In this document: positions 7,106 to 64,000 of the stretch, piece after piece
Position numbering within the stretch: position 1 is the first letter of the stretch
Layout: each line of letters begins with the position of its first letter
From: Cherax quadricarinatus
Lineage: Eukaryota; Arthropoda; Malacostraca; Decapoda; Parastacidae
Direction of reading: 5' to 3'
Assembly (NCBI RefSeq): GCF_038502225.1
Contig: NW_027195257.1
Span: forward strand, 95,001-159,000
Length of the DNA stretch: 64,000 nt
Position numbers and translations under genes: made by a program
Notes under the pieces: generated by a model
What the model was told of the DNA's origin: nothing
Databases searched by the model: none
Seen by the model: the letters and a program-made list of their open reading frames with translations, nothing else

Positions 7106-7167
7106 ATTTATTGAACATAGAATCCTGGGCTACCTGGTGGTGATCCTGCGCTAGACTACATCACAAC

Positions 7168-20387: not shown

Positions 20388-22390
<2,003 letters not shown>

Positions 22391-23765: not shown

Positions 23766-24031
23766 GCAATAAGATCACAGTAAACAGGTGATTTCAGAAT
23801 ATGCAAAACAACCACTCTGAAAGAATAGAGAAATTCCAAGCGCTTTCGTGACTACTCACATTATCAAGGAACTATGAAAGTAAAGCATCCAAGGAAGCTA
23901 TATAAGGGGTCTGGCCAGCACTTCACTATCAGATCCCACAACGGTTAAACACCTGACGCGCGCCGACCCAACTTGGATAGGTCCTTTGCACAACTCACCC
24001 ACAAACTATTCTACCCAAGAAAATTTAAAAA
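23766..24031 (-). repeat. PLE family 1, left terminal inverted arm
   Basis: Reverse complement of 25734-25968. It includes the hammerhead-like motif, the CCTTATATAGCTTCC TATA-like block and the sequence TTTCTTGGGTAGAATAG. This inverted arm next to a 5'-truncated coding part is the arrangement typical of Penelope-like elements. Confidence 0.8.
23833..23874 (-). ncRNA. Hammerhead-like motif, U3/A8 variant (PLE family 1, left arm)
   Basis: Minus strand: stem I AGTTCC (23874-23869), core TTGATAA (23868-23862), one extra T, stem II GTGA-GTAG-TCAC (23860-23849), GAA (23848-23846), self-complementary AGCGCT (23845-23840), T17 (23839), stem I partner GGAATT (23838-23833). Stem I pairs over 6 bp with one G-U. 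Core positions 3 and 8 are U and A in place of C and G. Confidence 0.55.

Positions 24032-25733: not shown

Positions 25734-25736
<3 letters not shown>
24032..25736 (+). pseudogene. Penelope-like element, family 1: reverse transcriptase and GIY-YIG endonuclease
   Basis: The coding part starts inside the RT (GLIKTHKPGNPVRPIISS at 24063) and runs to 24419, where a SINE interrupts it. It resumes near 24678 with MGNPLSPVLSNLYMEFFETR and FRYVDDILCL (catalytic YVDD intact) to 25390. A run of C at about 25374-25380 shifts the frame; the next frame carries the GIY-YIG nuclease (CVYKIPC, VYYGQTGKNLELRLKQHK) to 25736. PLEs use this nuclease to cut target DNA and prime reverse transcription. Breaks: missing N-terminus, SINE insertion and frameshift, so the copy is inactive. 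It lies between inverted arms and is bordered by (TA)n. Confidence 0.88.
24420..24677 (+). mobile_element. tRNA-derived SINE inserted in the PLE reverse transcriptase
   Basis: Head with A box TAGCCTGGTGGTTAACGC and B box GGTTCGATTCCC (near 24477). The body TACCTGGGTGTTAGTCGACTGG is shared with the 4500 SINE, and the tail GGCCTGGTCACAGACCGGG...CCCCCGGAACTCTCTCCAG is shared with 26460 and 27430. PLE coding sequence resumes immediately after, and no obvious target duplication longer than a base or two is seen. Confidence 0.8.
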
Positions 25737-26112
<376 letters not shown>

Positions 26113-26128
26113 CATATATATTACTTAC

Positions 26129-29161: not shown

Positions 29162-30341
<1,180 letters not shown>

Positions 30342-30403
<62 letters not shown>
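30342..30403. repeat. (TA)n microsatellite between head-to-head LINE copies
   Basis: About 62 bp of TA separating the truncated 5' ends of RTE-like copies 2 (minus) and 3 (plus). Confidence 0.95.
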
Positions 30404-32236
<1,833 letters not shown>

Positions 32237-32665: not shown

Positions 32666-35326
32666 AGTGGGGAACTAAGGAGGAGGAGCCAGTCAAATAT
32701 AATGAAAGGGGAGCACTGCAAGGGAGCTAGGTGCTCATAGAGGGAGAGCAAGTGCACAGAGGTGGGGGGAAACTGAAGTGATGAAATAAATAATGAAGGA
32801 ACAGAAACACGTGACAGAAGAAAGACAAAAAAGGAAAGAGGAAAGGGAAAGAGGGAGAAGATGAAAAATGAGGAATCAGGTTAAGTCACGGTGTTCTGAA
32901 GTTTGGAGCATTTTACAATGTAGTGGGAGAGGAAGGCATTACAGAGACGAAGCCAGCACTAAGATTCATACAAGGAAAGTTGTGTATTAGAGAGGGTTCA
33001 ACAAGACGGCGACTGTTAAAATTGGAAGTAGGGAAGACAGTTTTAGCAGACCAGTCTATAGGATGGCTCTGATCTCTGAGGTGACAGAAAAGAGCATTGT
33101 TAGTGTCTGCAAGCCTAACACTATTTTTGTGCTCCCTAAGTCTGTCAGAAAGAGATCGGCCAGTTTCTCCAAAGTATTGAAGAGGACAGGAGGAGCAAGA
33201 AATAGAGTAGACACCAGGAACATCTGTAGAGGGAGGAGAGGTATGAACGAGATTAGTGCGAAGAGTGTTAGTCTGGCGGAAAGTAAGCTTGATGTCTAAG
33301 TAACGGAGAGAATTGTTGAGATCAGAAAGTCCGGAAATGTAGGGAAGGCAGAGGACAGAAGAGTTCCCAGGAGTAGAGAGTTTCGGAGAGAAGAAATTAC
33401 GTTTAGCACGTGAGGGGGCAGAGTCTATGAAATGGGAAGGGTAGCCAAGACGGGAAAACGAATTATGAAGACCGGAAATTTCTGCTGGAAGGAACTGAGG
33501 ATCACAGATGCGGAGGGCACGGAGAAAGAGGGAGATAAGAACACTTTTCTTGACAGGGCAAGCATGATAGGAAAAGTAGTGAATGTACATGCCACTGTGC
33601 ATAGGTTTTCGGTAAACGGAAAAGGAAAAACCTGTATCTGATCGGTGGACATGGACATCAAGGAAAGGAAGCAAGAAATTAGATTCCCATTCAGCTTTAA
33701 ACTTAATGGAAGGGGCAAGATTATTAAGAGCTTCAAGAAAAGGTTGGAAGAGATTGGAGTCATGACGCCACAGAGCAAAGATGTCATCCACATAGCGGAG
33801 CCAGAGTGAAGGTTGCACATCGATGGTAGGAAGAAGAACAGTCTCGAAGTATTCCATGTAAAGATTAGCAAGGACAGGAGAGAGAGGTGAGCCCATAGCG
33901 ACACCGAAGGTTTGAGAATAATATTTCCCTTGGAAGGAAAAGGAATTAGAGTCCACACAGAGGCGGATAAGATCAAGAAAGACTTCAATAGGTATAGGGA
34001 GGAAACCTTTCAAGGGCCTTCTCTCTAAGGAAATCAAGGACATCATCAAAAGGGACATTGGTGAAGAGGGACTCAACGTCAAGACTAAGCATCTTACAGG
34101 TTGGGAGAGAGCGAACCCGTTCAATGAAGTCTTGAGAGTGACGGAGGTGGGCAGGAGAAAAAGTACCAAGAAAGGGAGTGAGGGTTTTGGCCAACCAAGA
34201 AGCAAGAGAATAAGAGACAGAACCTCTAGAGGATATGATAGGACGAAGAGGAATATCAGGTTTATGAGTTTTGGGAAGGCCATAGAAATAGGGAAGAGAG
34301 GGACAGATGACACGAAACCGTTGAACAAGGTCAAAGTCAGGTGGACAGAGGTCGGAGAGAGTCCTTAGTTTCTTGTTGAAAGTTCTCTTGATGCGATCAA
34401 GAGGGTTGGAAACGAGAGGAGTGTAGGTACGTGAGTCAGAGAGCAAGACATCAGCTTTACGGAGGTAATCCTCGCGATCAAGGATAAGTACCGAATTACC
34501 TTTGTCAGAAGATAGTATGACAATGTTAGTGTTAGATTTAAGAGAAGAAAGGGCAAGTTGGCAACGGCGTGGAAGGTGGTGATTCTTAGAAAACAGACTA
34601 ACAAGAGCAGGAAGGAGGGCGCCACGAAAAGTGGACAAGTCAGGAAGATTACGGGATCGAGAATGACGAAAGGAATCAAAAGAGCTAATCAGGGCAATAC
34701 CAGCGCGAGGAGTAGGCGAAGTGGCAAAGGAAAGGCCAAAACCAAGAAGTTCAAGCTCATACTGAGAGAGTGAGAGAGAAGACAAGTTAGTAACACAGTC
34801 AGTGAGAAAGAATTTAGACCAAGGGCTAGCTGAGATGAGACGTTGAAATTTATTCTGTAGTTTAGAAGAATGAATTTGTGTATTCAGGCGAGCAGTGTCA
34901 AACGCAATGTTAGAGAGAAGGTTACAGAGATCTTGCGGTAGAGCCTCAAAGAGAGCACGTTGACGTTGACGGAAAGTAAAGAAGGCATCATCAACCTGTG
35001 ACTTAGAAAGAATGAGCTGTTGAAGTAGGAGACGGGCATGATCAGGAAAGGGAGTGCCCAGTGGGTTGGGTTTCAGGAAATGGGAGAAGGAAGGTGGCAG
35101 AACTTGTTCAGCAAGACAGTCACGTAGGAAGCGAAGCTGATTCTTACGACGCCTGGTAGCAATAAGAGCAGCCTCGTAAGATCGAAAGAGGGGTTTAAAA
35201 GAGGGAAGAACATTAAAAAAGTTGGAGAGAATATGACGCTTAATGCGGGGTCCATAAATAACAAAAAAGGCACAATACCGTGACTGGAACGATATACAAA
35301 TAACCCGCACATAGAAGAGAGGAGCT

Positions 35327-35370
35327 TACGACGACGTTTCGGTCCGACTTGGACCATTTACAAAGTCACA
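35327..35370 (-). ncRNA. Hammerhead-like stem arrangement, degenerate core (PLE family 2)
   Basis: Minus strand: TGTGAC (35370-35365), TTTGTAAAT in place of the core, stem II GGTCC-AAGTC-GGACC (35355-35341), GAA, self-complementary ACGT, C, then GTCGTA (35332-35327), which pairs with TGTGAC through Watson-Crick and two G-U pairs. The stems match a hammerhead but the core is poor, so this is a homology suggestion only. Confidence 0.35.
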
Positions 35371-36872
35371 CTAACCAGACTAACCACACTAACCACTCTC
35401 AAGACTTCATTGAACGGGTTCGCTCTCTCCCAGCCTGTAAGATGCTTAGTCTTGACGTTGAGTCCCTCTTCACCAATGTCCCTTTTGATGATGTCCTTGA
35501 TTTCCTTAGAGAGAAGGCCCTTGAAAGGTTTCCTCCCTATACCTATTGAAGTCTTTCTTGATCTTATCCGCCTCTGTGTGGACTCTAATTCCTTTTCCTT
35601 CCAAGGGAAATATTATTCTCAAACCTTCGGTGTCGCTATGGGCTCACCTCTCTCTCCTGTCCTTACTAATCTTTACATGGAATACTTCGAGACTGTTCTT
35701 CTTCCTACCATCGATGTGCAACCTTCACTCTGGCTCCGCTATGTGGATGACATCTTTGCTCTGTGGCGTCATGACTCCAATCTCTTCCAACCTTTTCTTG
35801 AAGCTCTTAATAATCTTGCCCCTTCCATTAAGTTTAAAGCTGAATGGGAATCTAATTTCTTGCTTCCTTTCCTTGATGTCCATGTCAACCACTCAGATAC
35901 AGGTTTTTCCTTTTCCGTTTACCGAAAACCTATGCACAGTGGCATGTACATTCACTACTTTTCCTATCATGCTTGCCCTGTCAAGAAAAGTGTTCTTATC
36001 TCCCTCTTTCTCCATGCCCTCCGCATCTGTGATCCTCAGTTCCTTCCAGCAGAAATTTCCAGTCTTCATAATTCGTTTTCCCGTCTTGGCTACCCTTCCC
36101 ATTTCATAGACTCTGCCCTCTCACGTGCTAAACGTAATTTCTTCTCTCCCAAACTCTCTACTCCTGGGAACTCTTCTGTCCTCTGCCTTCCCTACATTTC
36201 CGGTCTTTCTAATCTTAACAATTCTCTCCGTTACTTAGACATCAAGCTTACTTTCCGCCAGACTAACACTCTTCGCACTAATCTCGTTCATACCTCTCCT
36301 CCCTCTACAGATGTTCCTGGTGTCTACTCTATTTCTTGCTCCTCCTGTTCTCTTCAATACTTTGGAGAAACTGGCCGATCTCTTTCTGACAGACTTAGGG
36401 AGCACAAAAATAGTGTTAGGCTTGCCGACACTAACAATGCTCTTTTCTGTCACCTCAGAGATCAGAGCTATCCTATAGACTGGTCTTCTGCTAAAACTGT
36501 CTTCCCTACTTCCAACTTTAACAGTCGCCGTCTTGTTGAATCCTCTCTAATACACAACTTTCCTTGTATGCATCTTAGTCCTGGCTTCGTCTCTGTAATG
36601 CCTTCCTCTCCCACTACATTGTAAAATGCTCCAAACTTCAGAACACCGGTGACTTAACCTGATTCCTCATTTTTCTTCTTCTCCCTCTTCCCATTTCCTC
36701 TTTCCTTTTTTGTCTTTCTTCTGTCGCGTGTTTCTGTTCCTTCATTATTTATTTCATCACTTCAGTTTCCCCCCACCTCTGTGCACTTGCTCTCCCTCTC
36801 TGAGCACCTAGCTCCCTTGCAGTGCTCCCCTTTCTTTATATTTGACTTGCTCCTCCTCCTTGGTTTCCCTCT

Positions 36873-46233: not shown

Positions 46234-46471
46234 TTGTAGATGAATGGTTCAGAGAACCGACACGTTGATAAATTAGACACATGTGCAACTCTTGGGTATC
46301 TTTATTGAGGAAATGTTTCGCCACACAGTGGCTTCATCAGTCCATACAAAGGAGAATCGTGAAGAACAGGAGGAGAATGAGGTAAACAGTCGCTCAACCT
46401 TGAGTCGATGTGGTCAGACCATCAATCTTGAATAGAATACGGCATATGAGCGGAGAAGTGGCTCATATATA
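46234..46471 (-). mobile_element. Hammerhead-bearing repeat, left inverted copy
   Basis: Reverse complement of about 50242-50475. It starts TTGTAGATGAATGGTTCAGAGAACC and includes the ribozyme-like motif, GAGGAGAATGAGGTAA and GCATATGAGCGGAGAAG. It interrupts or borders the 29 bp minisatellite. Confidence 0.75.
46309..46343 (-). ncRNA. Hammerhead ribozyme candidate with canonical CUGAUGA core
   Basis: Minus strand: GGA (46343-46341), CTGATGA (46340-46334), one extra A, stem II GCCAC-TGT-GTGGC, GAA (46319-46317), ACAT, T17 (46312), TCC (46311-46309). All conserved core bases are present. Stem III is ACAT instead of the self-complementary ACGT of the sister copy, which would weaken it. Stem I is only 3 bp by simple pairing. 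Confidence 0.6.
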
Positions 46472-47158
46472 AGGAACAGTGTATGGTTATAGGAAGTATA
46501 ATAAACAGTGTATGGTTACGGGCAGTATATGGAACAATGTATGGCTATAGGAAGTATAAGGGGCAGTAAAAGGTTATAGAAAGTATAAGGGGCAGTAAAA
46601 GGTTATAGAAAGTATAAGTAGCAGTGTATTGTTATGGTAAGTATAAGGGACAGTGAATGGTCATGGGCAGTATAAGGAACAGTGTATGGTTATAAGAAGT
46701 ATAAGGAACAGAGTATGGTTACAGGAAGTATAAGGGACAGAGTATGGTTACAGAAAGTATAAGGGGCAGTGTACGGTTACAGAAAGTATAAGGGGCAGTG
46801 TATGGATACAGCAAATATAAGGAATAATGTATGGTTATAAGAAGTACAAGGGACAGTGAATGGTTACACTATGTATAATGGCCAGGGTACTGTTACAGGA
46901 AGTGTAAAAGACAGGGTATGGTACAGGAAGTATAAAAGACAGGGTATGTTTACAGGAAGTATAATGACCAGGATATTGTTACAGGAAACATAAGGGACAG
47001 GGTATGGTTAAAGGAAGCATAATGACCAGGGTATTGTTACAGGAAGTGTAAGGGACAGGGTATACTTACAGGAAGTATAAAGAACAGGGTATGGTTACAG
47101 GAAGTATAAGGGAGAGGGTATGGTTACAGGAAGTGTTAATGACAGGGTATGGTCACCA
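46472..47158. repeat. 29 bp minisatellite, left block
   Basis: Units of the type GGTTACAGGAAGTATAAGGGACAGTGTAT, variable in sequence. The right block is at 49103-50085. Confidence 0.85.
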
Positions 47159-49102
47159 CTGTTATTGCTGTTATTGCTGCTGAACAGCGGTTTAGTGCCG
47201 ATGAAGGTAGCGTAGGTAGCAATGATACGGCCGTGGACTAGTTTGGCTTTAATTGGATAGGAGTGAGTACACAAGGGGCAGTGTGAGGGAGTGACCGCAA
47301 GCTAGTCCGTGGAGGGGGAGCACTTGTGTCTGTCAAGTGGGTCGGCCTAGGAGTGAGAGCGAATGGGCTCAGCCTCCCACTGACCTGAGTGAGCCTACAG
47401 AGGGCAGTGTGGAGAAATTTTCTCCAGGAGGGGGGTATCAGCCCCCTTCAGCCCCTTGAGCCCCTTTCAGCCCTGAGGCGCCCAGCCCTCTCAGAAGGGG
47501 CAAGCATCTTGTTTACTGCTACAGTGAGTAATTGATCACAGATGCCGTACGAGTATGCGAAGTGGTCAAGTTGACCACTGCTCCTTGCAGTGCAGTGTTG
47601 CAAAGTGTAGTTTAATCATATGTTGAGAAATGGCATTACTAGCTAAGTTTAAAGAGTTTGTACTTAACTTAGAAAGACAGCTCATCGCCTGCACAGCCGC
47701 CCCTGCAGACGAGGTCTTGAGAAGCTGTCAAAGTCATCTCTCAACGGGCTGTAAAGATTTATAATTTGTAAGAATATAAATTACCCCTAGGGGGTGTTAT
47801 GTCTGCATATTTTATTCACTGATGGCAGCCAAATTACATACTTGTTTGGACTCAAAAGTCCGCACCTCACTGCCGACTATAGGTTGATTACAAACTCCTT
47901 GCGACTCAAGAACTGCGCAGTCCCTCGTACTACAAGAAATTCGTAACCTACCTTGCTCTTGTAGCGTGAGCTATGGTGTTCTTCACACCTTCGACAGATA
48001 TCGGTGACTTGACAGAAGCTGAAGTTTCCTTGGATGTCCACGTCTTCCATAGTCTAGGAATACGCACACTGGTACACTATGTTCCACAAGATTTGTCTTT
48101 ATTGTTCACAATCTTATCACTAAAGAAGCTGATCACACTTCTCTTAAGTGTTTATTGTAGTTTAATAAGAGACAGTACATCTCTTACTTTAGCAGGACAA
48201 TTAAGGAAAATCCTGCTCCCTCTTTATTACCATAGTAAAGATAGTGGACATTGTTGTCTATGCTTAAGACAGCAAGAATCAAACATTCTGCTTTACTTCA
48301 TCGAGGAAGTGGCAAGGAAGCAAAAGTACTAGGTCAGCTTTTCCTTAGTGCTAGGGGAGTGACGGCATGGGGCGCTGTGGCGTCTTCAGATTAGTTTTGA
48401 CTCTACTGAGAGTGACACTGACGCCAGGATAACCAACAAAGAACGATCTGTGCGTTAGTGTGAACAAGTGTCTCATAAAACACAATAAACACTTAAGAGA
48501 AGTGTGATCAGCTTCTTTAGTGATAAGATTGTGAACAATAAAGACAAATTTTGTGGAACATAGTGTACCAGTGTGCGTTTCCTAGACTATGGAAGACGTG
48601 GACATCGAAGGACACTTCAGCTTCTATCAAGTCACCGATATCTGTCGAAGGTGTGAAGAACACCATAGCTCACACTACAAGAGCAAGGTAGGTTACGAAT
48701 TTCTTGTAGTACGGGGGACTGCGCAGTTCTTGAGTCGCAAGGAGTTTGTAATCAACCTATAGTCGGCAGTGAGGTGCGGACTTTTGAGTCCAAACAAGTA
48801 AGTTTGTCAGCCATCAGTGAATGAAATATGCTGACATAACACCCCCTAGGGGTAATTTATAATCTTACAAATTATAAATCTTTACAGCCCGTTGAGAGAT
48901 GACTTCGACAGCTTCTCAAGACCTCGTCTGCAGGGGCGGCTGTGCAGGCGATGAGCTGTCTTTCTAAGTTAAGTACAAACTCTTTAAACTTAGCTAGTAA
49001 TGCCATTTCTCAACAGGCAGCACCTAAATGCCGCGAAATATGAACTAGTCAGAGCAGACGGCTAGGCTGTGTGTTCTGACAGTACAGGCTGTCTACAATG
49101 GG
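47159..49102. mobile_element. 1.9 kb insertion in the minisatellite, including a foldback element
   Basis: Sequence unrelated to the 29 bp repeat separates its two blocks. The left 460 bp carries short GC-rich inverted stretches (GGGGGGTATCAGCCCCC near 47435). The centre is the large inverted repeat listed separately, and the right 87 bp is unassigned. Target duplications at the outer borders are not evident. Confidence 0.6.
47621..49015. mobile_element. Foldback element: inverted arms of about 535 bp around a 323 bp centre
   Basis: The left arm 47621-48158 and right arm 48482-49015 are reverse complements with few mismatches. They begin TGTTGAGAAATGGC and end GCCATTTCTCAACA (outer TG...CA). 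Each arm contains the palindrome CCCCTAGGGG. The centre has no recognisable gene; a 119-codon frame (47973-48332) runs from arm into centre and has no known motif. It is non-autonomous, of foldback/long-TIR type; the mobilising enzyme is unknown. Confidence 0.85.
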
Positions 49103-50085
49103 TACAGGAAGTATAAATGGCAGGGTATGGTTACAGGAAGCAAAAATCGCAGGGTATGGTTACAGGAAGTATAAATGGCAGGGTATGGTTACAGGAAGTA
49201 TAAATGGAAGGGTATGGTTACAGGAAGTATAAATGGCAGGGTATGGTTACAGGAAGAATAAATGACAGGGTATAGTTACAGGAAGTATAAATGGCAGGGT
49301 ATGGTTACAGGAGGTATAAAGGACAGGGTATAGTTACAGGAAGTATAAATGACAGGGTATGGTTACAGGAAGTATAAATGACAGGGTATGGTTACAGGAA
49401 GTATAAAGGACAGGGTATAGTTACAGGAAGTATAAATGACATGGTATGGTTACAGGAAGTATAAATGACAGGGTATAGTTACAGGAAGCATAAATTGGAG
49501 GGTATGGTTACAGGAAGTATAAATGGCAGGGTATGGTTACAGGAAGTATAAATGACAGGGTATGGTTACAGGAAGTATAAATGACAGGGTATGGTTACAG
49601 CAAGTATAAATGGCAGGGTATGGTTACAGGAAGTATAAATGACAGGGTATGGTTACAGGAAGTATAAATGACAGGGTATAGTTACAGGAAGCATAAATGA
49701 CAGGGTATGGTTACAGGAAGTATAAATGACAGGGTATGGTTACAGGAAGTATAAACGACAGGGTATAGTTACAGGAAGTATAAATGACATGGTATGGTTA
49801 CAGGAAGTATAAATGACAGGGTATAGTTACAGGAAGTATAAATTGGAGGGTATGGTTACAGGAAGTATAAATGGCAGGGTATGGTTACAGGAAGTATAAA
49901 TGACAGGGTATGGTGACAGGAAGTATAAATGACAGGGTATGGTTACAGGAAGTATAAATGGCAGGGTATGGTTACAGGAAGTATAAATGACAGGGTATGG
50001 TTACAGGAAGTATAAATGACAGGGTATAGTTACAGGAAGTATAAATGACAGGGTATGGTTACAGGAAGTATAAATGACAGGTTCT
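49103..50085. repeat. 29 bp minisatellite, right block
   Basis: About 34 units of GGGTATGGTTACAGGAAGTA plus TAAATGACA, with GACA/GGCA and GGTT/AGTT variants. It is more homogeneous than the left block. Confidence 0.95.
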
Positions 50086-50475
50086 GTGAACCATTCATCT
50101 ACAATCCTGTCAGACACTGCAACTTCTTGGGATCTTAATACTTGGGAATTCTTCACTTGCCTAACCCTTGGGCACGACCTACTTCCACATTGGACAAATG
50201 TGACACCACCTACGACTGCTGACCCTCACCTGTCTACGGTATATAAGCTGCTTCTCCGCTCATATGCCGTATACTATTCAAGATTGATGGACTGAACACA
50301 TCGACTCAAGGCTGAGGGACTGATTACCTCATTCTCCTCCTGTTCTTCAAGTTTCTCCTTTGTATGGACTGATGAAGCCACTGTGTGGCGAAACGTTTCC
50401 TCAATAAAGATACCCAACAGTTGTACATGTATCTAATTCAACAACATGTCGGTTCTCTGAACCATTCATCTACAA
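50086..50475 (+). mobile_element. Hammerhead-bearing repeat unit, right copy
   Basis: Bounded by the same sequence at both ends, GGTTCT(G/C)TGAACCATTCATC at 50086 and 50451, a spacing of 365 bp. Inside are CCTGTCAGACACTG, a TATA-like GGTATATAAGC (about 50239), the ribozyme motif, AATAAAGATACC and GTTGTACATGTATCTAATT. The layout resembles non-autonomous retrozymes or PLE pseudo-LTRs. An open frame of 73 codons at its start has no known motif. Confidence 0.7.
50366..50400 (+). ncRNA. Hammerhead ribozyme candidate, canonical core
   Basis: GGA (50366-50368), CTGATGA (50369-50375), one extra A, stem II GCCAC-TGT-GTGGC (50377-50389), GAA (50390-50392), self-complementary ACGT (50393-50396), T17 (50397), TCC (50398-50400) pairing with GGA. 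All invariant core bases are present. A stem III made by ACGT has no loop, so cleavage would be expected only between two copies, as in known dimeric hammerheads. The extra base before stem II is atypical. Confidence 0.65.
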
Positions 50476-53400
50476 CCTCAGTAGAGTACCCCAGTGTACC
50501 TCAGTAGAGTATCCCAGTGTACCTCAGTAGAGTATCCCAGAGTACCTCAGTAGAGTATCCCAGTGTACTTCAGTAGAGTACCCCAGTGTACCTCAGTAGA
50601 GTATCCCAGTGTACCTCAGTAGAGTATCCCAGTGTACCTCAGTAGAGTATCCCAGTGTACCTCATTAGAGTATCCCAGTGTACCTCAGTAGAGTATCCAA
50701 GTGTACCTCAGTAGAGTATCCCAGTGTACCTCAGTAGAGTATCCCAGTGTACCTCAGTAGAGTATCCCAGTGTACCTCAGTAGAGTACCCCAGTGTGCCT
50801 CATTAAAGTATCCCAGAGTACCTCAGCAGAGTATCCCAGTGTACCTCAGTAGAGTATCCAAGTGTACCTCAGTAGAGTATCCCAGTGTACCTCAGTAGAG
50901 TATCCCAGTGTACCTCGGTAGAGTATCCCAGTGTACCTCGGTAGAGTACCCCAGTGTACCTCAGTAGAGTACCCCAGTGCACCTCAGTAGAGTATCCCAG
51001 TGCACCTCAGCAGAGTATCCCAGTGTACATCAGTATAGTATCCCTGTGTACCTCAGTAGAGTATCCCAGTGTACCTCAGTAGAGTATCCCAATGTACCTC
51101 AGTAGAGTATCCAATTGTACCTCAGTAGAGCATCCCAGTGTACCTCAGTAGAGTATCCCAGTGTACCTCAGTAGAGTACCTTAGTGTACCTCAGTAGAGT
51201 ACCCCAGTGTACCTCAGTAGAGTACCCCAGTGTACCTCAGTAGAGTTCCCCAGTGTACCTCAGTAGAGTACCCCAGTGTACCTCAGTAGAGTACCCCAGT
51301 GTACCTCAGTAGAGTACCCCAGTGTACCTCAGTAGAGTACCCCAGTGTACCTCAGTAGAGTACCCCAGTGTACCTCAGTAGAGTACCCCAGTGTACCTCA
51401 GTAGAGTATCCCAGTGTACCTCAGTAGAGTACCCCAGTGTACCTCAGTAGAGTACCCCAGTGTACCTCAGTAGAGTACCCCAGTGTACCTCAGTAGAGTA
51501 TCCCAGTGTACCTAAGTAGAGTACCCCAGTGAACCTCAGTAGAGTATCCCAGTGTACCTCAGTAGAGTACCCCAGTGTACCTCAGTAGAGTACCCCAGTG
51601 TACCTCAGTAGAGTACCCCAGCGTACCTCAGTAGAGTATCCCAGTGTACCTCAGTAGAGTACCCCAGTGTACCTCAGTAGAGTATCCCAGTGTACCTCAG
51701 TAGAGTATCCCAGTGTACCTCAGTAGAGTATCCCAGTGTACCTCATTAGAGTATCCTAATGCACCCCAGTAGAGTATCCTAGTGAACCTCAGTAGAGTAT
51801 CCCAGTGTACCTCAGTAGAGTATCCCAGTGTACCTCAGTAGAGTATCCTAGTGTTCGTCAGTAGAGTATCCCAGTGTATCTCAGTAGAGTATCCCAGTGT
51901 ATCTCAATAGAGTATCCCAGTGTACCTCAGTTGAGTTTCCCAGTGTACCTCAGTATAGCATCCCGGTGTACCTTAGTAGAGTATCCTAGTGTACCTCAGT
52001 AGAGTATCCCAGTGTACTTCAGTAGATTATCCCAGTGTACCTCAGTAGAGTATCCTAGTGTACCTCAGTAGAGTATCCCAATGTATCTCAGTAGAGTATC
52101 CCAGTGTACCTCAGTAGAGTATCCCATTGTACCTCAGTAGAGTGTCCCAATGCACCTCAGTAGAGTATCCCAGTGTACCTCAGTAGAGTATCCCAGTGTA
52201 CCTCAGTAGAGTATCCTAGTGTACCTCAGTAGAGTATCCTAGTGTAGCTCAGTAGAGTATCCCAGTGTACCTCAGTAGAGTATCCCAGTGTACTTCATTA
52301 GGATATCCCAGTGTACCTTAGTAGAGTATCCTAGTGTACCTCAGTAGAGTATCCCAGTGTACTTCAGTAGATTATCCCAGTGTACCTCAGTAGAGTATCC
52401 TAGTGTACCTCAGTAGAGTATCCCAATGTATCTCAGTAGAGTATCCCAGTGTACCTCAGTAGAGTATCCCATTGTACCTCAGTAGAGTGTCCCAATGCAC
52501 CTCAGTAGAGTATCCCAGTGTACCTCAGTAGAGTATCCCAGTGTACCTCAGTAGAGTATCCTAGTGTACCTCAGTAGAGTATCCTAGTGTAGCTCAGTAG
52601 AGTATCCCAGTGTACCTCAGTAGAGTATCCCAGTGTACTTCATTAGGATATCCCAGTGTACCTCAGTAGAGTATCCCAATGCACCTCAGTAGAGTACCCC
52701 AGTGTACCTCAGTAGAGCATCTCAGTGTACCTCAGTAGAGTATCCCAGTGTACCTCAGTAGAATATCCCAGTGTACCTCAGTAGAGTATCCAAGTGTACC
52801 TCAGTAGAGTATCCCAGTGTACCTCAGTAGAGCATCCCAGTGTACCTCAGTAAAGTATCCCAGTGAACCTCAGTAGAGTATCCTAGTGTACCTCAGTAGA
52901 GTATCCCAGTGTACCTCAGTAGAGTATCCTAGTGTACCTCAGTAGAGTATCCCAGTGTACCTCAGTAGAGTATCCCAGTGTACCTCAGTAGAGTATCCTA
53001 GTGTACCTCAGTAGAGTATCCCAGTGTACCTCAGTAGAGTATCCTAGTGTACCTCAGTAGAGTATCCCAGTGTACCTCAGTAGAGTATCCCAGTGTACCT
53101 CAGTAGAGTATCCCAGTGTACCTCAGTAGAGTATCCCAGTGTACCTCAGTAGAGTATCCCAGTGTACCTCAGTAGAGTATCCCAGTGTACCTCAGTAGAG
53201 TATCCCAGTGTACCTCAGTAGAGTATCCCAGTGTACCTCAGTAGAGTATCCCAGTGTACCTCAGTAGAGTATCCCAGTGTACCTCAGTAGAGTATCCCAG
53301 TGTACCTCAGTAGAGTATCCCAGTGTACCTCAGTAGAGTATCCCAGTGTACCTCAGTAGAGTATCCCAGTGTACCTCAGTAGAGTATCCCAGTGTACCTC

Positions 53401-56400
53401 AGTAGAGTATCCCAGTGTACCTCAGTAGAGTATCCCAGTGTACCTCAGTAGAGTATCCCAGTGTACCTCAGTAGAGTATCCCAGTGTACCTCAGTAGAGT
53501 ATCCCAGTGTACCTCAATAGAGTATCCCAGTGTACCTCAGTAGAGTATCCCAGTGTCCCTCAGTAGAGTATCCCAGTGTACCTCAGTAGAGTATCCCAGT
53601 GTACCTCAGTAGAGTATCCCAGTGTACCTCAGTAGAGTATCCCAGTGTACCTCAGTAGAGTATCCCAGTGTACCTCAGTAGAGTACCCCAGTGTACCTCA
53701 GTAGAGTACCCCAGTGTACCTCAGTAGAGTATCCCAGTGTACCTCAGTAGAGTACCCCAGTGTACCTCAGTAGAGTATCCCAGTGTACCTCAGTAGAGTG
53801 TCCTAGTGTACCTTAGTAGAGTATCACAGTGTACCTCAGTAGAGTATCCCAGTGTACCTCAGTAGAGTATCCCAGTGTACCTCAGTAGAGTATCCCAGTG
53901 TACCTCATTAGAGTATCCCAATGCACCCCAGTAGTGTATCCTAGTGTACCTCAGTAGAGTATCCCAGTGTACCTCAGAAGAGTATCCCAGTGTACCTCAG
54001 TAGAGTATCCTAGTGTTATTCAGTAGAGTATCCCAGTGTATCTCAGTAGAGTATCCCAGTGTATCTCAATAGAGTATCCCAGTGTACCTCAGTAGAGTAT
54101 CCCAGTGTACCTCAGTATAGCATCCCGGTGTACCTTAGTAGAGTATCCTAGTGTACCTCAGTAGAGTATCCCAGTGTACTTCAGTAGATTATCCCAGTGT
54201 ACCTCAGTAGAGTATCCTAGTGTACCTCAGTAGAGTATCCCAATGTATCTCAGTAGAGTATCCCAGTGTACCTCAGTAGAGTATCCCATTGTACCTCAGT
54301 AGAGTGTCCCAATGCACCTCAGTAGAGTATCCCAGTGTACCGCAGTAGAGTATCCCAGTGTACCTCAGTAGAGTATCCTAGTGTACCTCAGTAGAGTATC
54401 CTAGTGTAGCTCAGTAGAGTATCCCAGTGTACCTCAGTAGAGTATCCCAGTGTACTTCATTAGGATATCCCAGTGTACCTCAGTAGAGTATCCCAGTGTA
54501 CCACAGTAGAGTATCCCATTGTACCTCAGTAGAGTATCCCAATGCACCTCAGTAGAGTACCCCAGTGTACCTCAGTAGAGCATCTCAGTGTACCTCAGTA
54601 GAGTATCCCAGTGTACCTCAGTAGAGTATCCCAGTGTACCTCAGTAGAGTATCCAAGTGTACCTCAGTAGAGTATCCCAGTGTACCTCAGTAGAGCATCC
54701 CAGTGTACCTCAGTAAAGTATCCCAGTGAACCTCAGTAGAGTATCCTAGTGTACCTCAGTAGAGTATCCCAGTGTACCTCAGTAGAGTATTCCAGTGTAC
54801 CTCAGTAGAGTATCCCAGTGTACCTCAGTAGAGTATCCCAGTGTACCTCAGTAGAGTATCCTAGTGTACCTCAGTAGAGTATCCCAGTGTACCTCAGTAG
54901 AGTATCCTAGTGTACCTCAGTAGAGTATCCCAGTGTACCTCAGTAGAGTAACCCAGTGTACCTCAGTAGAGTATCCCAGTGTACCTCAGTAGAGTATCCC
55001 AGTGTACCTCAGTAGAGTATCCCAGTGTACCTCAGTAGAGTATCCCAGTGTACCTCAGTAGAGTATCCCAGTGTACCTCAGTAGAGTATCCCAGTGTACC
55101 TCAGTAGAGTATCCCAGTGTACCTCAGTAGAGTATCCCAGTGTACCTCAGTAGAGTATCCCAGTGTACCTCAGTAGAGTATCCCAGTGTACCTCAGTAGA
55201 GTATCCCAGTGTACCTCAGTAGAGTATCCCAGTGTACCTCAGTAGAGTATCCCAGTGTACCTCAGTAGAGTATCCCAGTGTACCTCAATAGAGTATCCCA
55301 GTGTACCTCAGTAGAGTATCCCATCCCTCAGTAGAGTGTACCTCAGTAGAGTCTCCCAGTGTACCTCAGTAGAGTATCCCAGTGTACCTCCGTAGAGTAT
55401 CCCAGTGTACCTCAGTAGAGTATCCCAGTGTACCTCAGTAGAGTATCCCAGTGTACCTCAGTAGAGTATCCCAGTGTACCTCAGTAGAGTATCCCAGTGT
55501 ACCTCAGTAGAGTATCCCAGTGTACCTCAGTAGAGTATCCCAGTGTACCTCAGTAGAGTATCCCAGTGTACCTCAGTAGAGTATCCCAGTGTACCTCAGT
55601 AGAGTATCCCAGTGTACCTCAGTAGAGTATCCCAGTGTACCTCAGTAGAGTATCCCAGTGTACCTCAGTAGAGTATCCCAGTGTACCTCAGTAGAGTATC
55701 CCAGTGTACCTCAGTAGAGTATCCCAGTGTACCTCAGTAGAGTATCCCAGTGTACCTCAGTAGAGTATCCCAGTGTACCTCAGTAGAGTATCCCAGTGTA
55801 CCTCAGTAGAGTATCCCAGTGTACCTCAGTAGAGTATCCCAGTGTACCTCAGTAGAGTATCCCAGTGTACCTCAGTAGAGTATCCCAGTGTACCTCAGTA
55901 GAGTATCCTAGTGTTATTCAGTAGAGTATCCCAGTGTATCTCAGTAGAGTATCCCAGTGTATCTCAATAGAGTATCCCAGTGTACCTCAGTAGAGTATCC
56001 CAGTGTACCTCAGTATAGCATCCCGGTGTACCTTAGTAGAGTATCCTAGTGTACCTCAGTAGAGTATCCCAGTGTACTTCAGTAGATTATCCCAGTGTAC
56101 CTCAGTAGAGTATCCTAGTGTACCTCAGTAGAGTATCCCAATGTATCTCAGTAGAGTATCCCAGTGTACCTCAGTAGAGTATCCCATTGTACCTCAGTAG
56201 AGTGTCCCAATGCACCTCAGTAGAGTATCCCAGTGTACCTCAGTAGAGTATCCCAGTGTACCTCAGTAGAGTATCCTAGTGTACCTCAGTAGAGTATCCT
56301 AGTGTAGCTCAGTAGAGTATCCCAGTGTACCTCAGTAGAGTATCCCAGTGTACTTCATTAGGATATCCCAGTGTACCTTAGTAGAGTATCCTAGTGTACC

Positions 56401-59400
56401 TCAGTAGAGTATCCCAGTGTACTTCAGTAGATTATCCCAGTGTACCTCAGTAGAGTATCCTAGTGTACCTCAGTAGAGTATCCCAATGTATCTCAGTAGA
56501 GTATCCCAGTGTACCTCAGTAGAGTATCCCATTGTACCTCAGTAGAGTGTCCCAATGCACCTCAGTAGAGTATCCCAGTGTACCTCAGTAGAGTATCCCA
56601 GTGTACCTCAGTAGAGTATCCTAGTGTACCTCAGTAGAGTATCCTAGTGTAGCTCAGTAGAGTATCCCAGTGTACCTCAGTAGAGTATCCCAGTGTACTT
56701 CATTAGGATATCCCAGTGTACCTCAGTAGAGTATCCCAATGCACCTCAGTAGAGTACCCCAGTGTACCTCAGTAGAGCATCTCAGTGTACCTCAGTAGAG
56801 TATCCCAGTGTACCTCAGTAGAATATCCCAGTGTACCTCAGTAGAGTATCCAAGTGTACCTCAGTAGAGTATCCCAGTGTACCTCAGTAGAGCATCCCAG
56901 TGTACCTCAGTAAAGTATCCCAGTGAACCTCAGTAGAGTATCCTAGTGTACCTCAGTAGAGTATCCCAGTGTACCTCAGTAGAGTATCCCAGTGTACCTC
57001 AGTAGAGTATCCTAGTGTACCTCAGTAGAGTATCCCAGTGTACCTCAGTAGAGTATCCTAGTGTACCTCAGTAGAGTATCCCAGTGTACCTCAGTAGAGT
57101 ATCCCAGTGTACCTCAGTAGAGTATCCCAGTGTACCTCAGTAGAGTATCCCAGTGTACCTCAGTAGAGTAGTGTCCTCAGTAGAGTATCCTAGTGTACCT
57201 CAGTAGAGTATCCCAGTGTACCTCAGTAGAGTATCCCAGTGTACCTCAGTAGAGTATCCCAGTGTACCTCAGTAGAGTATCCCAGTGTACCTCAGTAGAG
57301 TATCCCAGTGTACCTCAGTAGAGTATCCCAGTGTACCTCAGTAGAGTATCCCAGTGTACCTCAGTAGAGTATCCCAGTGTACCTCAGTAGAGTATCCCAG
57401 TGTACCTCAGTAGAGTATCCCAGTGTACCTCAGTAGAGTATCCCAGTGTACCTCAGTAGAGTATCCCAGTGTACCTCAGTAGAGTATCCCAGTGTACCTC
57501 AGTAGAGTATCCCAGTGTACCTCAGTAGAGTATCCCAGTGTACCTCAGTAGAGTATCCCAGTGTACCTCAGTAGAGTATCCCAGTGTACCTCAGTAGAGT
57601 ATCCCAGTGTACCTCAGTAGAGTATCCCAGTGTACCTCAGTAGAGTATCCCAGTGTACCTCAGTAGAGTATCCCAGTGTACCTCAGTAGAGTATGCTAGT
57701 GTACCTCATTAGAATATCCCAGTGTACCTCAGTAGAGTATCCCAGTGTACCTCAGTAGAGTATCCCAGTGTACCTCAGTAGAGTATCCCAGTGTACCTCA
57801 GTAGAGTACCCCAGTGTACCTCAGTAGAGTATCCCAGTGTACCTCAGTAGAGTACCCCAGTGTACCTCAGTAGAGTATCCCAGTGTACCTCAGTAGAGTG
57901 TCCTAGTGTACCTTAGTAGAGTATCACAGTGTACCTCAGTAGAGTATCCCAGTGTACCTCAGTAGAGTATCCCAGTGTACCTCAGTAGAGTATCCCAGTG
58001 TACCTCATTAGAGTATCCCAATGCACCCCAGTAGTGTATCCTAGTGTACCTCAGTAGAGTATCCCAGTGTACCTCAGAAGAGTATCCCAGTGTACCTCAG
58101 TAGAGTATCCTAGTGTTATTCAGTAGAGTATCCCAGTGTATCTCAGTAGAGTATCCCAGTGTATCTCAATAGAGTATCCCAGTGTACCTCAGTAGAGTAT
58201 CCCAGTGTACCTCAGTATAGCATCCCGGTGTACCTTAGTAGAGTATCCTAGTGTACCTCAGTAGAGTATCCCAGTGTACTTCAGTAGATTATCCCAGTGT
58301 ACCTCAGTAGAGTATCCTAGTGTACCTCAGTAGAGTATCCCAATGTATCTCAGTAGAGTATCCCAGTGTACCTCAGTAGAGTATCCCATTGTACCTCAGT
58401 AGAGTGTCCCAATGCACCTCAGTAGAGTATCCCAGTGTACCTCAGTAGAGTATCCCAGTGTACCTCAGTAGAGTATCCTAGTGTACCTCAGTAGAGTATC
58501 CTAGTGTAGCTCAGTAGAGTATCCCAGTGTACCTCAGTAGAGTATCCCAGTGTACTTCATTAGTATATCCCAGTGTACCTCAGTAGAGTATCCCAGTGTA
58601 CCTCAGTAGAGTATCCCATTGTACCTCAGTAGAGTATCCCAGTGTACCTCAGTAGAGTATCCCAGTGTACCTCAGTAGAGTATCCCAGTGTACCTCAGTA
58701 GAGTATCCCAGTGTACCTCAGTAGAGTATCCCAGTGTACCTCAGTAGAGTATCCCAGTGTACCTCAGTAGAGTATCCCAGTGTACCTCAGTAGAGTATCC
58801 CAGTGTACCTCAGTAGAGTATCCCAGTGTACCTCAGTAGAGTATCCCAGTGTACCTCAGTAGAGTATCCCAGTGTACCTCAGTAGAGTATCCCAGTGTAC
58901 CTCCCAGTGTACCTCAGTAGAGCATCCCAGTGTACCTCAGTAAAGTATCCCAGTGAACCTCAGTAGAGTATCCCAGTGTACCTCAGTAGAGTATCCCAGT
59001 GTACCTCAGTAGAGTAGTGTACCTCAGTAGAGAATCCCAGTGTACCTCAGTAAAGTATCCCAGTGTACCTCAGTAGAGTATCCCAGTGTACCTCAGTAGA
59101 GTATCTCTAGTGTACCTCAGTAGAGTATCCCAGTGTACCTCCCAGTAGAGTATCCCAGTGTACCTCAGTAGAGTATCCCAGTGTACCTCAGTAGAGTATC
59201 AGTGTAGAGTATCCCTGTGTACCTCAGTAGAGTATCCCAGTGTACCTCAGTAGAGTATCCCAGTGTACCTCAGTAGAGTATCCCAGTGTACCTCAGTAGA
59301 GTATCCCAGTGTACCTCAGTAGAGTATCCCAGTGTACCTCAGTAGAGTATCCCAGTGTACCTCAGTAGAGTATCCCAGCGTACCTCAGTGGAGTGTACCT

Positions 59401-62400
59401 CCCAGTGTACCTCAGTAGAGTATCCCAGTGTACCTCTCAGTGTACCTCAGTCATTGTATCCCAGTGTACCTTAGTAGAGTATCCCAGTGTACCTCAGTAG
59501 AGTATCCCAGTGTGTCCCTAGAGTATCCACCCTCAGTAGAGTATCCCAGTGTACCTCAGTAGAGTATCCTCAGTAGAGTATCCCAGTGTACCTCAGTAGA
59601 GTATCCCAGTGTACCTCAGTAGAGTATCCCAGTGTACCTCAGTAGAGTATCCCAGTGTACCTCAGTAGAGTATCCCAGTGTACCTCAGTAGAGTATCCCA
59701 GTGTACCTCAGTAGAGTATCCCAGTGTACCTCAGTAGAGTATCCCAGTGTACCTCAGTAGAGTATCCCAGTGTACCTCAGTAGAGTATCCCAGTGTACCT
59801 CAGTAGAGTATCCCAGTGTACCTCAGTAGAGTATCCCAGTGTACCTCAGTAGAGTATCCCAGTGTACCTCAGTAGAGTATCCCAGTGTACCTCAGTAGAG
59901 TATCCCAGTGTACCTCAGTAGAGTATCCCAGTGTACCTCAGTAGAGTATCCCAGTGTACCTCAGTAGAGTATCCCAGTGTACCTCAGTAGAGTATCCAGT
60001 GTACCTCAGTAGAGTATCCTAGTGTACCTCAGTAGAGTATCCCAGTGTACCTCAGTAGAGTATCCCAGTGTACCTCAGTAGAGTATCCCAGTGTACCTCA
60101 GTAGAGTATCCCAGTGTACCTCAGTAGAGTATCCCAGTGTACCTCAGTAGAGTATCCCAGTGTACCTCAGTAGAGTATCCCAGTGTACCTCAGTAGAGTA
60201 TCCCAGTGTACCTCAGTAGAGTATCCCAGTGTACCTCAGTAGAGTATCCCAGTGTACCTCAGTAGAGTATCCCAGTGTACCTCAGTAGAGTATCCCAGTG
60301 TACCTCAGTAGAGTATCCCAGTGTACCTCAGTAGAGTATCCCAGTGTACCTCAGTAGAGTATCCCAGTGTACCTCAGTAGAGTATCCCAGTGTACCTCAG
60401 TAGAGTATCCCAGTGTACCTCAGTAGAGTATCCCAGTGTACCTCAGTAGAGTACCCCAGTGTACCTCAGTAGAGTACCCCAGTGTACCTCAGTAGAGTAT
60501 CCCAGTGTACCTCAGTAGAGTACCCCAGTGTACCTCAGTAGAGTATCCCAGTGTACCTCAGTAGAGTGTCCTAGTGTACCTCAGTTGAGTATCACAGTGT
60601 ACCTCAGTAGAGTATCCCAGTGTACCTCAGTAGAGTATCCCAGTGTACCTCAGTAGAGTATCCCAGTGTACCTCATTAGAGTATCCCAATGCACCCCAGT
60701 AGAGTATCCTAGTGTACCTCAGTAGAGTATCGCAGTGTACCTCAGTAGAGTATCCCAGTGTACCTCAGTAGAGTATCCTAGTGTTCCTCAGTAGAGTATC
60801 CCAGTGTATCTCAGTAGAGTATCCCAGTGTATCTCAATAGAGTATCCCAGTGTACCTCAGTAGAGTATCCCAGTGTACCTCAGTATAGCATCCCGGTGTA
60901 CCTTAGTAGAGTATCCTAGTGTACCTCAGTAGAGTATCCCAGTGTACTTCAGTAGATTATCCCAGTGTACCTCAGTAGAGTATCCTAGTGTACCTCAGTA
61001 GAGTATCCCAATGTATCTCAGTAGAGTATCCCAGTGTACCTCAGTAGAGTATCCCATTGTACCTCAGTAGAGTGTCCCAATGCACCTCAGTAGAGTATCC
61101 CAGTGTACCGCAGTAGAGTATCCCAGTGTACCTCAGTAGAGTATCCTAGTGTACCTCAGTAGAGTATCCTAGTGTAGCTCAGTAGAGTATCCCAGTGTAC
61201 CTCAGTAGAGTATCCCAGTGTACCACAGTAGAGTATCCCAGTGTACCTCAGTAGAGTATCCCAATGCACATCAGTAGAGTACCCCAGTGTACCTCAGTAG
61301 AGCATCTCAGTGTACCTCAGTAGAGTATCCAAGTGTACCTCAGTAGAGTATCCCAGTGTACCTCAGTAGAGCATCCCAGTGTACCTCAGTAAAGTATCCC
61401 AGTGAACCTCAGTAGAGTATCCTAGTGTACCTCAGTAGAGTATCCCAATGTACCTCTGTAGAGTATTCCAGTGTACCTCAGTAGAGTATCCCAGTGTACC
61501 TCAGTAGAGTATCCCAGTGTTCCTCAGTAGAGTATCCCAGTGTACCTCAGTAGAGTACCCCAGTGTACCTCAGTAGAGTACCCCAGTGTACCTCAGTAGA
61601 GTATCCCAGTGTACCTCAGTAGAGTACCCCAGTGTACCTCAGTAGATTATCCCAGTGTACCTCAGTAGAGTGTCCTAGTGTACCTCAGTTGAGTATCACA
61701 GTGTACCTCAGTAGAGTATCCCAGTGTACCTCAGTAGAGTATCCCAGTGTACCTCAGTAGAGTATCCCAGTGTACCTCAGTAGAGTATCCCAATGCACCC
61801 CAGTAGAGTATCCTAGTGTACCTCAGTAGAGTATCAGTGTACCTCAGTAGAGTATCCCAGTGTACCTCAGTAGAGTATCCCAGTGTACCTCAGTAGAGTA
61901 TCCCAGTGTACCTCAGTAGAGTATCCCAGTGTACCTCAGTAGAGTATCCCAGTGTACCTCAGTAGAGTATCCCAGTGTACCTCAGTAGAGTATCCCAGTG
62001 TACCTCAGTAGAGTATCCCAGTGTACCTCAGTAGAGTATCCCAGTGTACCTCAGTAGAGTATCCTAGTGTACCTCAGTAGAGTATCCAGTGTACCTCAGT
62101 AGAGTATCCCAATGTATCTCAGTAGAGTATCCCAGTGTACCTCAGTAGAGTATCCCATTGTACCTCAGTAGAGTGTCCCAATGCACCTCAGTAGAGTATC
62201 CCAGTGTACCTCAGTAGAGTATCCCAGTGTACCTCAGTAGAGTATCCTAGTGTACCTCAGTAGAGTATCCTAGTGTAGCTCAGTAGAGTATCCCAGTGTA
62301 CCTAAGTAGAGTATCCCAGTGTACCTCAGTAGAGTATCCCAGTGTACCTCAGTAGAGTATCCTAGTGTACCTCAGTAGAGTATCCTAGTGTAGCTCAGTA

Positions 62401-64000
62401 GAGTATCCCAGTGTACCTCAGTATAGCATCCCCGTGTACCTTAGTAGAGTATCCTAGTGTACCTCAGTAGAGTATCCCAGTGTACTTCAGTAGATTATCC
62501 CAGTGTACCTCAGTAGAGTATCCCAGTGTACCTCAGTAGAGTATCCCAGTGTACCTCAGTAGAGTATCCCAGTGTACCTCAGTAGAGTATCCCAGTGTAC
62601 CTCAGTAGAGTATCCCAGTGTACCTCAGTAGAGTATCCCAGTGTACCTCAGTAGAGTATCCTAGTGTACCTCAGTAGAGTATCCTAGTGTAGCTCAGTAG
62701 AGTATCCCAGTGTACCTCAGTAGAGTATCCCAGTGTACCTCAGTAGAGTATCCCATTGTACCTCAGTAGAGTATCCCAATGCACCTCAGTTGAGTACCCC
62801 AGTGTACCTCAGTAGAGCATCTCAGTGTACCTCAGTAGAGTATCCCAGTGTACCTCAGTAGAGTATCCCAGTGTACCTCAGTAGAGTATCCCAGTGTACC
62901 TCAGTAGAGCATCCCAGTGTACCTCAGTAGAGTATCCCAGTGTACCTCAGTAGAGTATCCCAGTGTACCTCAGTAGAGTATCCCAGTGTACCTCAGTAGA
63001 GTATCCCAGTGTACCTCAGTAGAGTATCCTAGTGTACCTCAGTAGAGTATCCCAGTGTACCTCAGTAGAGTATCCTAGTGTACCTCAGTAGAGTATCCCA
63101 GTGTACCTCAGTAGAGTATCCCAGTGTACCTCAGTAGAGTATCCCAGTGTACCTCAGTAGAGTATCCCAGTGTACCTCAGTAGAGTATCCCAGTGTACCT
63201 CAGTAGAGTATCCCAGTGTACCTCAGTAGAGTATCCCAGTGTACCTCAGTAGAGTATCCCAGTGTACCTCAGTAGAGTATCCCAGTGTACCTCAGTAGAG
63301 TATCCCAGTGTACCTCAGTAGAGTATCCCAGTGTACCTCAGTAGAGTATCCCAGTGTACCTCAGTAGAGTATCCCAGTGTACCTCAGTAGAGTATCCCAG
63401 TGTACCTCAGTAGAGTATCCCAGTGTACCTCAGTAGAGTATCCCAGTGTAACTCAGTAGAGTATCCCAGTGTACCTCAGTAGAGTATCCCAGTGTACCTC
63501 AGTAGAGTATCCCAGTGTATCTCAGTAGAGTATCCCAGTGTACCTCAGTAGAGTATCCCAGTGTACCTCAGTAGAGTACCCCAGTGTACCTCAGTAGAGT
63601 ACCCCAGTGTACCTCAGTAGAGTATCCCAGTGTACCTCAGTAGAGTACCCCAGTGTACCTCAGTAGAGTATCCCAGTGTACCTCAGTAGAGTGTCCTAGT
63701 GTACCTCAGTTGAGTATCACAGTGTACCTCAGTAGAGTATCCCAGTGTACCTCAGTAGAGTATCCCAGTGTACCTCAGTAGAGTATCCCAGTGTACCTCA
63801 TTAGAGTATCCCAATGCACCCCAGTAGAGTATCCTAGTGTACCTCAGTAGAGTATTGCAGTGTACCTCAGTAGAGTATCCCAGTGTACCTCAGTAGAGTA
63901 TCCTAGTGTTCCTCAGTAGAGTATCCCAGTGTATCTCAGTAGAGTATCCCAGTGTATCTCAATAGAATATCCCAGTGTACCTCAGTAGAGTATCCCAGTG
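50476..64000. repeat. 23 bp satellite array, over 13.5 kb, running off the window
   Basis: Head-to-tail units of AGTGTACCTCAGTAGAGTAT plus CCC, about 580-590 copies in the window. Variants (CCTAG, ACCCC, GATTATCC, TATAGCATCCCGG, CATTAGGATATCC) recur in the same order, giving higher-order blocks. The marker CAGTATAGCATCCCGG lies at 51951, 54113, 56011, 58213 and 60881, with a CCCCG form at 62419. Irregular short units lie around 55322, 57170 and 58890-59580. No gene is seen. Confidence 0.97.

Follow-up and report, generated by a model that had tools for sequence, protein, structure and literature searches.

The minimal hammerhead ribozymes of Penelope-like elements (PLEs) are said to be the subject of Cervera and de la Pena (2014) and of Lunse, Weinberg and Breaker (2017). 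Two papers describe both retrozymes and PLE hammerheads (PMC7229834, PMC7761336); the first of them places crustaceans among the hosts of retrozyme-like repeats and gives retrozyme units of 150-450 bp. According to PMC3846280, the pseudo-LTR (pLTR) of a rotifer Penelope element carries TATATATA, and the copies have an inverted pLTR, head-to-head joints, an optional 31-bp tail on one pLTR and target site duplications (TSDs) of 8-10 bp; that paper discusses self-priming, not two-strand target priming. The lizard PLE named PAc has a hammerhead at the junction of the pLTR and the ORF. According to PMC11167929, PAc hammerhead mutants insert normally in vitro, and the hammerhead cleaved only when protein was added.

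The window (the whole analysed stretch of crayfish DNA, 64 kb in length) contains a repeat unit, copy A, which is probably a non-autonomous Penelope-like element consisting of a pLTR only, with a predicted minimal hammerhead that would act as a dimer. The coordinates of its features and of the other copies in the window are given in Table 1. The earlier note on this DNA had described a 365-bp unit with the same word at both ends, a TATA-like box and no reverse transcriptase (RT) beside it. The unit is actually 371 bp long; the other three points are borne out, the 25-bp word GGTTCTSTGAACCATTCATCTACAA beginning at 50080 and again at 50451, the box being present, and the Penelope-like ORFs of the window lying about 13-26 kb away. 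No ORF of at least 110 aa was found in the 371-bp unit. It has no RT/GIY-YIG ORF and is therefore not an autonomous PLE, but PLE-like in structure only. Satellites border copy A on both sides: a 29-bp one, with arrays at 46468-47153 and 49098-50081, and a 23-bp one, with an array at 50475-64000; copy A lies between the last two of these arrays.

Table 1. Features of the repeat unit, its predicted ribozyme and the related copies in the window.
Feature	Position	Strand	Basis or remark
Copy A, one 371-bp unit, pLTR-like, no long ORF	50080-50450	+	25-bp word repeat; tandem spacing elsewhere
TATA-like box TATATAAG	50240-50247 (unit 161-168)	+	Sequence; 5' ends of copies cluster ~20-45 nt downstream
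Putative transcription start zone	50264-50289 (unit 185-210)	+	Clustered 5' ends of copies in the genome
Stem I, 5' arm GGA (positions 2.3-2.1)	50366-50368	+	Covaries with 50398-50400 across subfamilies
Hammerhead core CTGATGA, C3-A9	50369-50375	+	C3 = 50369
Extra A between A9 and stem II	50376	+	A in 119/120 parsed copies
Stem II GCCAC/GTGGC, loop TGT	50377-50381/50385-50389	+	Paired in most parsed copies
Core GAA, G12-A14	50390-50392	+	GAA in 114/120 parsed copies
Palindromic ACGT	50393-50396	+	ACGT in 113/120; stem III only between two molecules or units
U17; predicted cleavage site	50397; 50397/50398	+	Hammerhead rule
Stem I, 3' arm TCC (positions 1.1-1.3)	50398-50400	+	Covariation with 5' arm
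AATAAA	50403-50408	+	Just 3' of the ribozyme motif, from sequence
Second-unit start, ending ...CTACAA; tail end of the insertion	50451-50475	+	25/74 sampled 3' ends at unit 24-32
Copy B	46234-46469	-	92% identity; 5' side truncated; core intact; ACAT for ACGT in stem III
Copy C	22548-22905	-	77% identical; core broken, CTAATAA
Tail-head piece of second unit, inverted beside copy C	22939-23030	+	BLAST of unit
Copy D	5655-5757	+	75%; U3-A8 subfamily (TTGATAA), C17

Read directly on the plus strand, positions 50366-50400 give GGA-CTGATGA-A-GCCAC-TGT-GTGGC-GAA-ACGT-T-TCC. The hammerhead numbering, the core rules and the cut position 50397/50398 follow the general hammerhead rules. The motif represents a genuine ribozyme fold of the hammerhead type, with a predicted cleavage site. 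The reading agrees with the complete canonical core (CUGAUGA, GAA and U17) and the 5-bp stem II reported in the earlier note, and also with its two caveats, the one extra A (50376) and the short stem I, which has 3 bp beside the core in copy A. Stem III of copy A is a self-complementary ACGU without a loop and is possible in dimers only, as had been suggested from the palindrome; it is kept in 113 of the 120 parsed copies. Loop II has 3 nt and loop III is absent; the retrozyme hammerhead is the canonical one, with loop-loop contacts. In plain energy folding of copy A, part of the core pairs with CGUU in place of the hammerhead fold; energy-based dimer folds, in which the stem III pairs were not enforced, are uninformative for a core of non-standard pairs. 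The extra A together with the loopless stem III is unusual for a hammerhead. The CChMVd (+) hammerhead is said to have an extra A at the same junction and still to be active (De la Pena and Flores, 2001); this viroid ribozyme is reportedly a type III hammerhead whose stem III is complete. None of the 10 papers listed out of 2,487 literature matches mentions a hammerhead ribozyme, and the sequence words of the unit had no match there either.

The motif could be a hammerhead-like sequence that arose by chance in an ordinary repeat, as its extra A and short stems would allow. A match to an Rfam hammerhead model, one of the checks named beforehand, was not obtained either: at permissive thresholds (E up to 5 or 10), Rfam 15 showed no hammerhead in the window, in the segment 50080-50480 or in six other loci. 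Against this, a strict structural scan of the 64-kb window returned one full-core motif, with 0.023 expected per 64 kb according to 300 Markov simulations. The criteria of the scan (full core, stem II of at least 4 bp, stem III of at least 2 bp and stem I of at least 3 bp) were chosen after the motif was known. A loopless palindromic stem III was seen in 0/300 simulations. Together with the subfamily-level covariation described below, the simulations lead us to reject a chance motif, the probability of which we consider negligible.

As for copies of the motif within the window, the earlier note saw only that of copy A; this one stands, and three more (copies B, C and D) were found. Copy A carries one ribozyme motif only. 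The extra A and the hairpin are present in all four copies, an intact C3-G8 core is confined to A and B, and three of the four have an altered core or stem III. Our family model R1 finds copies A-D (E values from 3.6e-15 to 5.2e-10), and no further match has an E value below 6; copies A, B and C are rows of the R1 alignment, so that their matches are there by construction.

The unit is present in tens of thousands of genomic copies. In the searched genome (3.95 Gb, 7334 contigs), probably that of a parastacid crayfish, the pattern CTGATGAAGCCN7GGCGAAAC has 54,895 exact matches, 27,440 and 27,455 on the two strands, while its reversed control has 0. The search with the unit itself gave 112 matches in the 40 candidates that were scored out of 2186, and three full tandem units at C14:17355927-17357037 are spaced by 371 bp. 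A related pattern, YTGATRAAGCCACTGGATGGCGAAACGTC, has 22,056 matches; the first 100 of them comprise 95 UUGAUAA, 3 CUGAUAA and 2 UUGAUGA cores and no CUGAUGA. Viral contigs yielded 0 matches in the DNA-pattern scans and 0 relatives in the protein scan, and the same protein scan of the genome contigs gave 3 loci. Most of the loci that were fetched for comparison (L012-L061 among L004-L061, i.e., 50/58) were chosen by an intact S1 pattern. This choice inflates the apparent proportion of intact S1 copies; the pattern does not cover S3 and S4 copies.

Among 121 motif-covering copies, 120 could be parsed (the copy at L039 1405 was dropped). The core is intact in 102 of them, a share that the locus choice biases upward, seven have U3-A8 and are otherwise intact, and eleven are broken. 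Stem I pairs 1, 2 and 3 are formed in 118, 116 and 118 of the 120 copies and pair 4 in 23, while stem II pairs 1-5 are formed in 109-118. At stem I position 2.3-1.3, G-C (97), C-G (11), G-U (6), U-A (4) and other combinations (2) were observed, i.e., three different Watson-Crick pairs among diverged subfamilies; at 2.2-1.2, the counts are G-C 104, U-A 9, A-U 2, G-U 1 and other 4. The stem II hairpin of one subfamily is extended to 15 nt in 15 copies by an added pair, U-A in 14 and U-G in one. The position pair 3-8 is C-G in 109 copies, U-A in 7, C-A in 3 and A-A in 1, and H17 is U in 108, C in 11 and G in 1. Over 52 distinct motifs, with 3-8 counted as a pair, the covariation score is 0.197 versus a shuffle mean of 0.103 (0/500 shuffles as high), and with slid partners it is at most 0.092. 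Two of the five measures are weaker, the number of both-sides-changed pairs being reached by 72/500 shuffles and that of pair types by 49/500. Since the relatedness of copies inflates all these figures, the case rests on the subfamily-level changes. Thus, the compensatory stem changes that were proposed as a check do occur, in the stem I pairs, in the added stem II pair and in the covariation score.

Among the 34 copies with less than 80% identity, 21 have an intact C3-G8 core, seven have U3-A8 and six are broken. Positions 4, 6 and 9 are invariant in these 34 copies, position 5 varies once, and position 7 is split between U (20 copies) and A (14 copies). N7 is unconstrained in the hammerhead core. 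The drift of N7 with positions 4, 5, 6 and 9 kept is therefore the constraint pattern of a hammerhead itself and not that of a plain hairpin. It is unaffected by the S1-based choice of loci, since neither the CUGAAGA nor the UUGAUAA copies fit the S1 pattern. Coding constraint was considered as another source of conservation and rejected: neither the CUGAAGA nor the UUGAUAA subfamily has the ATG of CTGATGA, and two extra bases come in with the stem II insertion. A conserved reading frame would therefore not explain the block.

The U3-A8 subfamily may have stayed active through a coordinated change of its core, or it may have lost the core and spread all the same. A paired change at two of about nine fixed core positions is unlikely to arise by chance, though we would count it as one event. 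The one paper listed in a literature search for C3-G8 variants deals with designed ribozymes. It is conceivable, though we think it rather unlikely, that the subfamily behind 95 of the first 100 of the 22,056 matches is an active natural hammerhead lineage in which C3-G8 was swapped as a pair, with a longer stem I and C17, and that Rfam 15 misses a large class of crustacean hammerheads in which the extra A is a constant feature.

In the fetched loci, 66 distinct insertions were distinguished: 34 are head to head (minus copy on the left, plus copy on the right), 31, including copy A, are on one strand, and one is mixed. Hence, copies on both strands occur in 35/66 insertions. A flank word of at least 7 nt common to both sides was found in 21/66 insertions versus 5% in shuffled pairs. 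The flank words range from 8 to 14 nt, 18 of the 21 being 11-14 nt long; they can include a few letters of the unit ends, so that the target duplications may be shorter. In 16 of the 17 two-strand insertions with a flank word, one side ends at unit 24-32 and the other at 359-370; the exception is L042, with ends at 29 and 329. None of the 18 two-strand insertions without a flank word fits this one-tail rule (in six both ends are at 355-371 and in one both are in the tail), and many of these belong to subfamilies aligned at less than 90%, for which ends determined by alignment to copy A are unsure. The 74 distinct 3' ends include 25 at unit 24-32, 28 at 359-371 and 21 elsewhere, the tail end being about 32 bp beyond the other usual end. 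Thus, the sample shows the PLE-type pattern of direct and head-to-head inverted pLTRs, a one-end tail and TSDs, and the likeness to PLE pseudo-LTRs and retrozymes noted earlier holds for these features and for the ORF-less tandem unit. As a side observation, inverted repeats in L016, L019, L007, L027 and L041, several of which are unit pairs, match miRNA precursors in Rfam below the threshold, MIR821 at E 7e-19 among them, which warns of spurious miRNA annotation from palindromes.

Of 75 distinct 5' ends, 16 are at unit 185-210 versus 5.3 expected (p 5e-5 against a uniform distribution), and the best 26-nt bin is unit 191-216, with 17/75. Given TATATAAG at unit 161-168, this cluster sits where transcription would start. 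Around the predicted cut (unit 314-324), there is 1 of the 75 ends, a count biased against cut-site ends, since most loci were chosen by an intact motif. In a bias-free subset of 39 copies, whose opposite-strand neighbour alone would bring in the locus, 10 start at unit 185-210 (2.7 expected, p 3e-4) and 1 at unit 314-324 (1.2 expected). Copies do not start at the predicted cut beyond expectation, which indicates that cleaved RNA is not the usual template; the copy starts speak against a large role for cleavage. The counts would still accommodate a minor fraction of copies that begin there.

These ends bear directly on the idea that the unit is a metazoan retrozyme as defined by Cervera and de la Pena (2020), which would move via small circular RNAs arising from hammerhead cleavage and ligation. 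A 371-bp ORF-less tandem unit with a type I hammerhead fits the range of 150-450 bp, and the array of three full units is in line with it. On the other hand, the 5' ends are at the promoter start (16/75; 10/39) and not at the cut (1/75; 1/39), as would be the case for primary transcripts, and the ribozyme belongs with the minimal hammerheads lacking stem III, which PMC7229834 and PMC7761336 assign to PLEs. A retrozyme is thus a doubtful reading of the unit.

Another explanation is that the ribozyme is a relic, i.e., the fold goes back to an ancestral Penelope-like element, cleavage is dispensable, and the hairpin with GAAACGUUUC is kept for another purpose, e.g., RT binding. This would be consistent with 5' ends that are not at the predicted cut, with the 22,056 pattern matches of a family that has U3-A8 in 95 of the first 100 places, and with the PLEs of the window, which keep a hairpin followed by CGAAACG and have a non-canonical core at 32501(-), 35341(-) and 37050(+). 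Hammerhead mutants without effect on insertion in vitro, described in PMC11167929, point in the same direction. What this explanation leaves unaccounted for is the retention of the single-stranded core positions 4, 5, 6 and 9 in diverged copies while N7 drifts, and the coordinated 3-8 change; a mere hairpin signal explains neither constraint. We regard it as possible but improbable.

The reading as a pLTR-only Penelope-like element would account for the data as follows. The unit would be a short protein-less retroelement, in effect a pseudo-LTR moving by itself. The TATA-type promoter (50240) would start an RNA about 20-45 nt downstream, which would pass through the hammerhead and end near unit 359-371 or in the first 24-32 nt of the next unit. 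The RT/GIY-YIG protein of some autonomous Penelope-like element, a presumed helper, would use a staggered nick in the target to copy this RNA. If both target strands served for priming, as we infer from the one-tail head-to-head pattern, two copies would result head to head, one with the 32-bp tail, and the paired copies would be flanked by a short target duplication. The minimal type I motif would form stem III only by the pairing of two motifs, in neighbouring tandem units or in two RNAs, and would thus be expected to cut multi-unit transcripts into 371-nt monomers.

In the loci searched, no autonomous partner carrying the unit was recognised. An RT/GIY-YIG stretch that follows a unit pair in L039 was rejected as the helper, because the pair is within a minisatellite and reads as a separate insertion; L046 was also rejected, its units being inside a PLE copy. 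PLE matches were also found near units in L045, L055 and L058. At L055:6703-7911, a PLE C-terminal match lies between two U3-A8-type copies of opposite orientation; possibly this is a remnant of a larger element with the unit, or the copies are chance neighbours.

The window itself contains several other elements. Two Penelope-like copies are located head to head at 32913-36624, one at 35325-32913 (minus strand, two overlapping frames) and the other at 35284-36624 (plus strand). Their RT matches are below the Pfam cut-off, and their relatives are crustacean RT proteins; the best named relative of the PLE-like protein 32913-34364(-) is from Cherax quadricarinatus (87% over 75% of the query), followed by Procambarus and Penaeus. 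These copies are flanked by the hairpin GGTCC..GGACC-CGAAACGTC with its non-canonical core (32501(-), 35341(-) and 37050(+)). The window PLEs were rejected as the source of the unit, since model R1 does not recognise their GGTCC..GGACC-CGAAACG hairpins, which have a non-canonical core. A further Penelope-like copy at 23884-25736 has RT and GIY-YIG matches and ends near an (AT)n run (25969-26121); other PLE copies likewise end near (AT)n runs (32119, 37132). A Gypsy-like ORF of 1203 aa (7144-10755) with protease, RT, RNase H and integrase matches is followed by a 16-bp satellite (11210-15926). The RT ORFs at 21165-22304 and 30284-31870 look LINE-like, and the second one opens inside an (AT)n run. 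Outside the window, a 3.6-kb contig assigned to a bacterial MAG codes for a PLE RT relative with 38% identity (L001:2173-3428), perhaps a eukaryotic contamination.

The crayfish unit shows a pLTR-like element that multiplies alone with the one-tail, head-to-head signature of PLEs. Its hammerheads are a very large set absent from the Rfam 15 listings for the stretches searched, and the family provides natural covariation inside the catalytic core, from C3-G8 to U3-A8. Since the insertions record the start of the template RNA, this is a copy-rich system for asking what PLE hammerheads do, and the 75 ends sampled here indicate the promoter and not the predicted cut.

Besides the CChMVd (+) hammerhead, three described groups are the closest to the unit. 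With the GIY-YIG PLEs (Pen2a_Av, PMC3846280; PAc, PMC11167929), it has in common the head-to-head inverted pLTRs, an optional one-end tail of about 31 bp, a TSD and a TATA box, whereas the crayfish unit is without an ORF and has flank words of 8-14 nt versus TSDs of 8-10 bp. The minimal PLE hammerheads (PMC7761336, PMC6155905) are likewise of type I, have no real helix III, occur in tandem in pLTR-like repeats and are expected to cut as dimers; the crayfish family differs in having no RT/EN ORF, a large U3-A8 subfamily and, as a possible further difference, the extra A (119/120). The metazoan non-LTR retrozymes (PMC7229834) are also small tandem repeats without an ORF that carry a type I hammerhead, have TSDs and reach a very high copy number, but the crayfish unit differs from them in its minimal rather than canonical hammerhead and in its PLE insertion anatomy. 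Thus, the absence of an ORF and the tandem unit make the element like the retrozymes, and its insertion anatomy places it with the PLEs.
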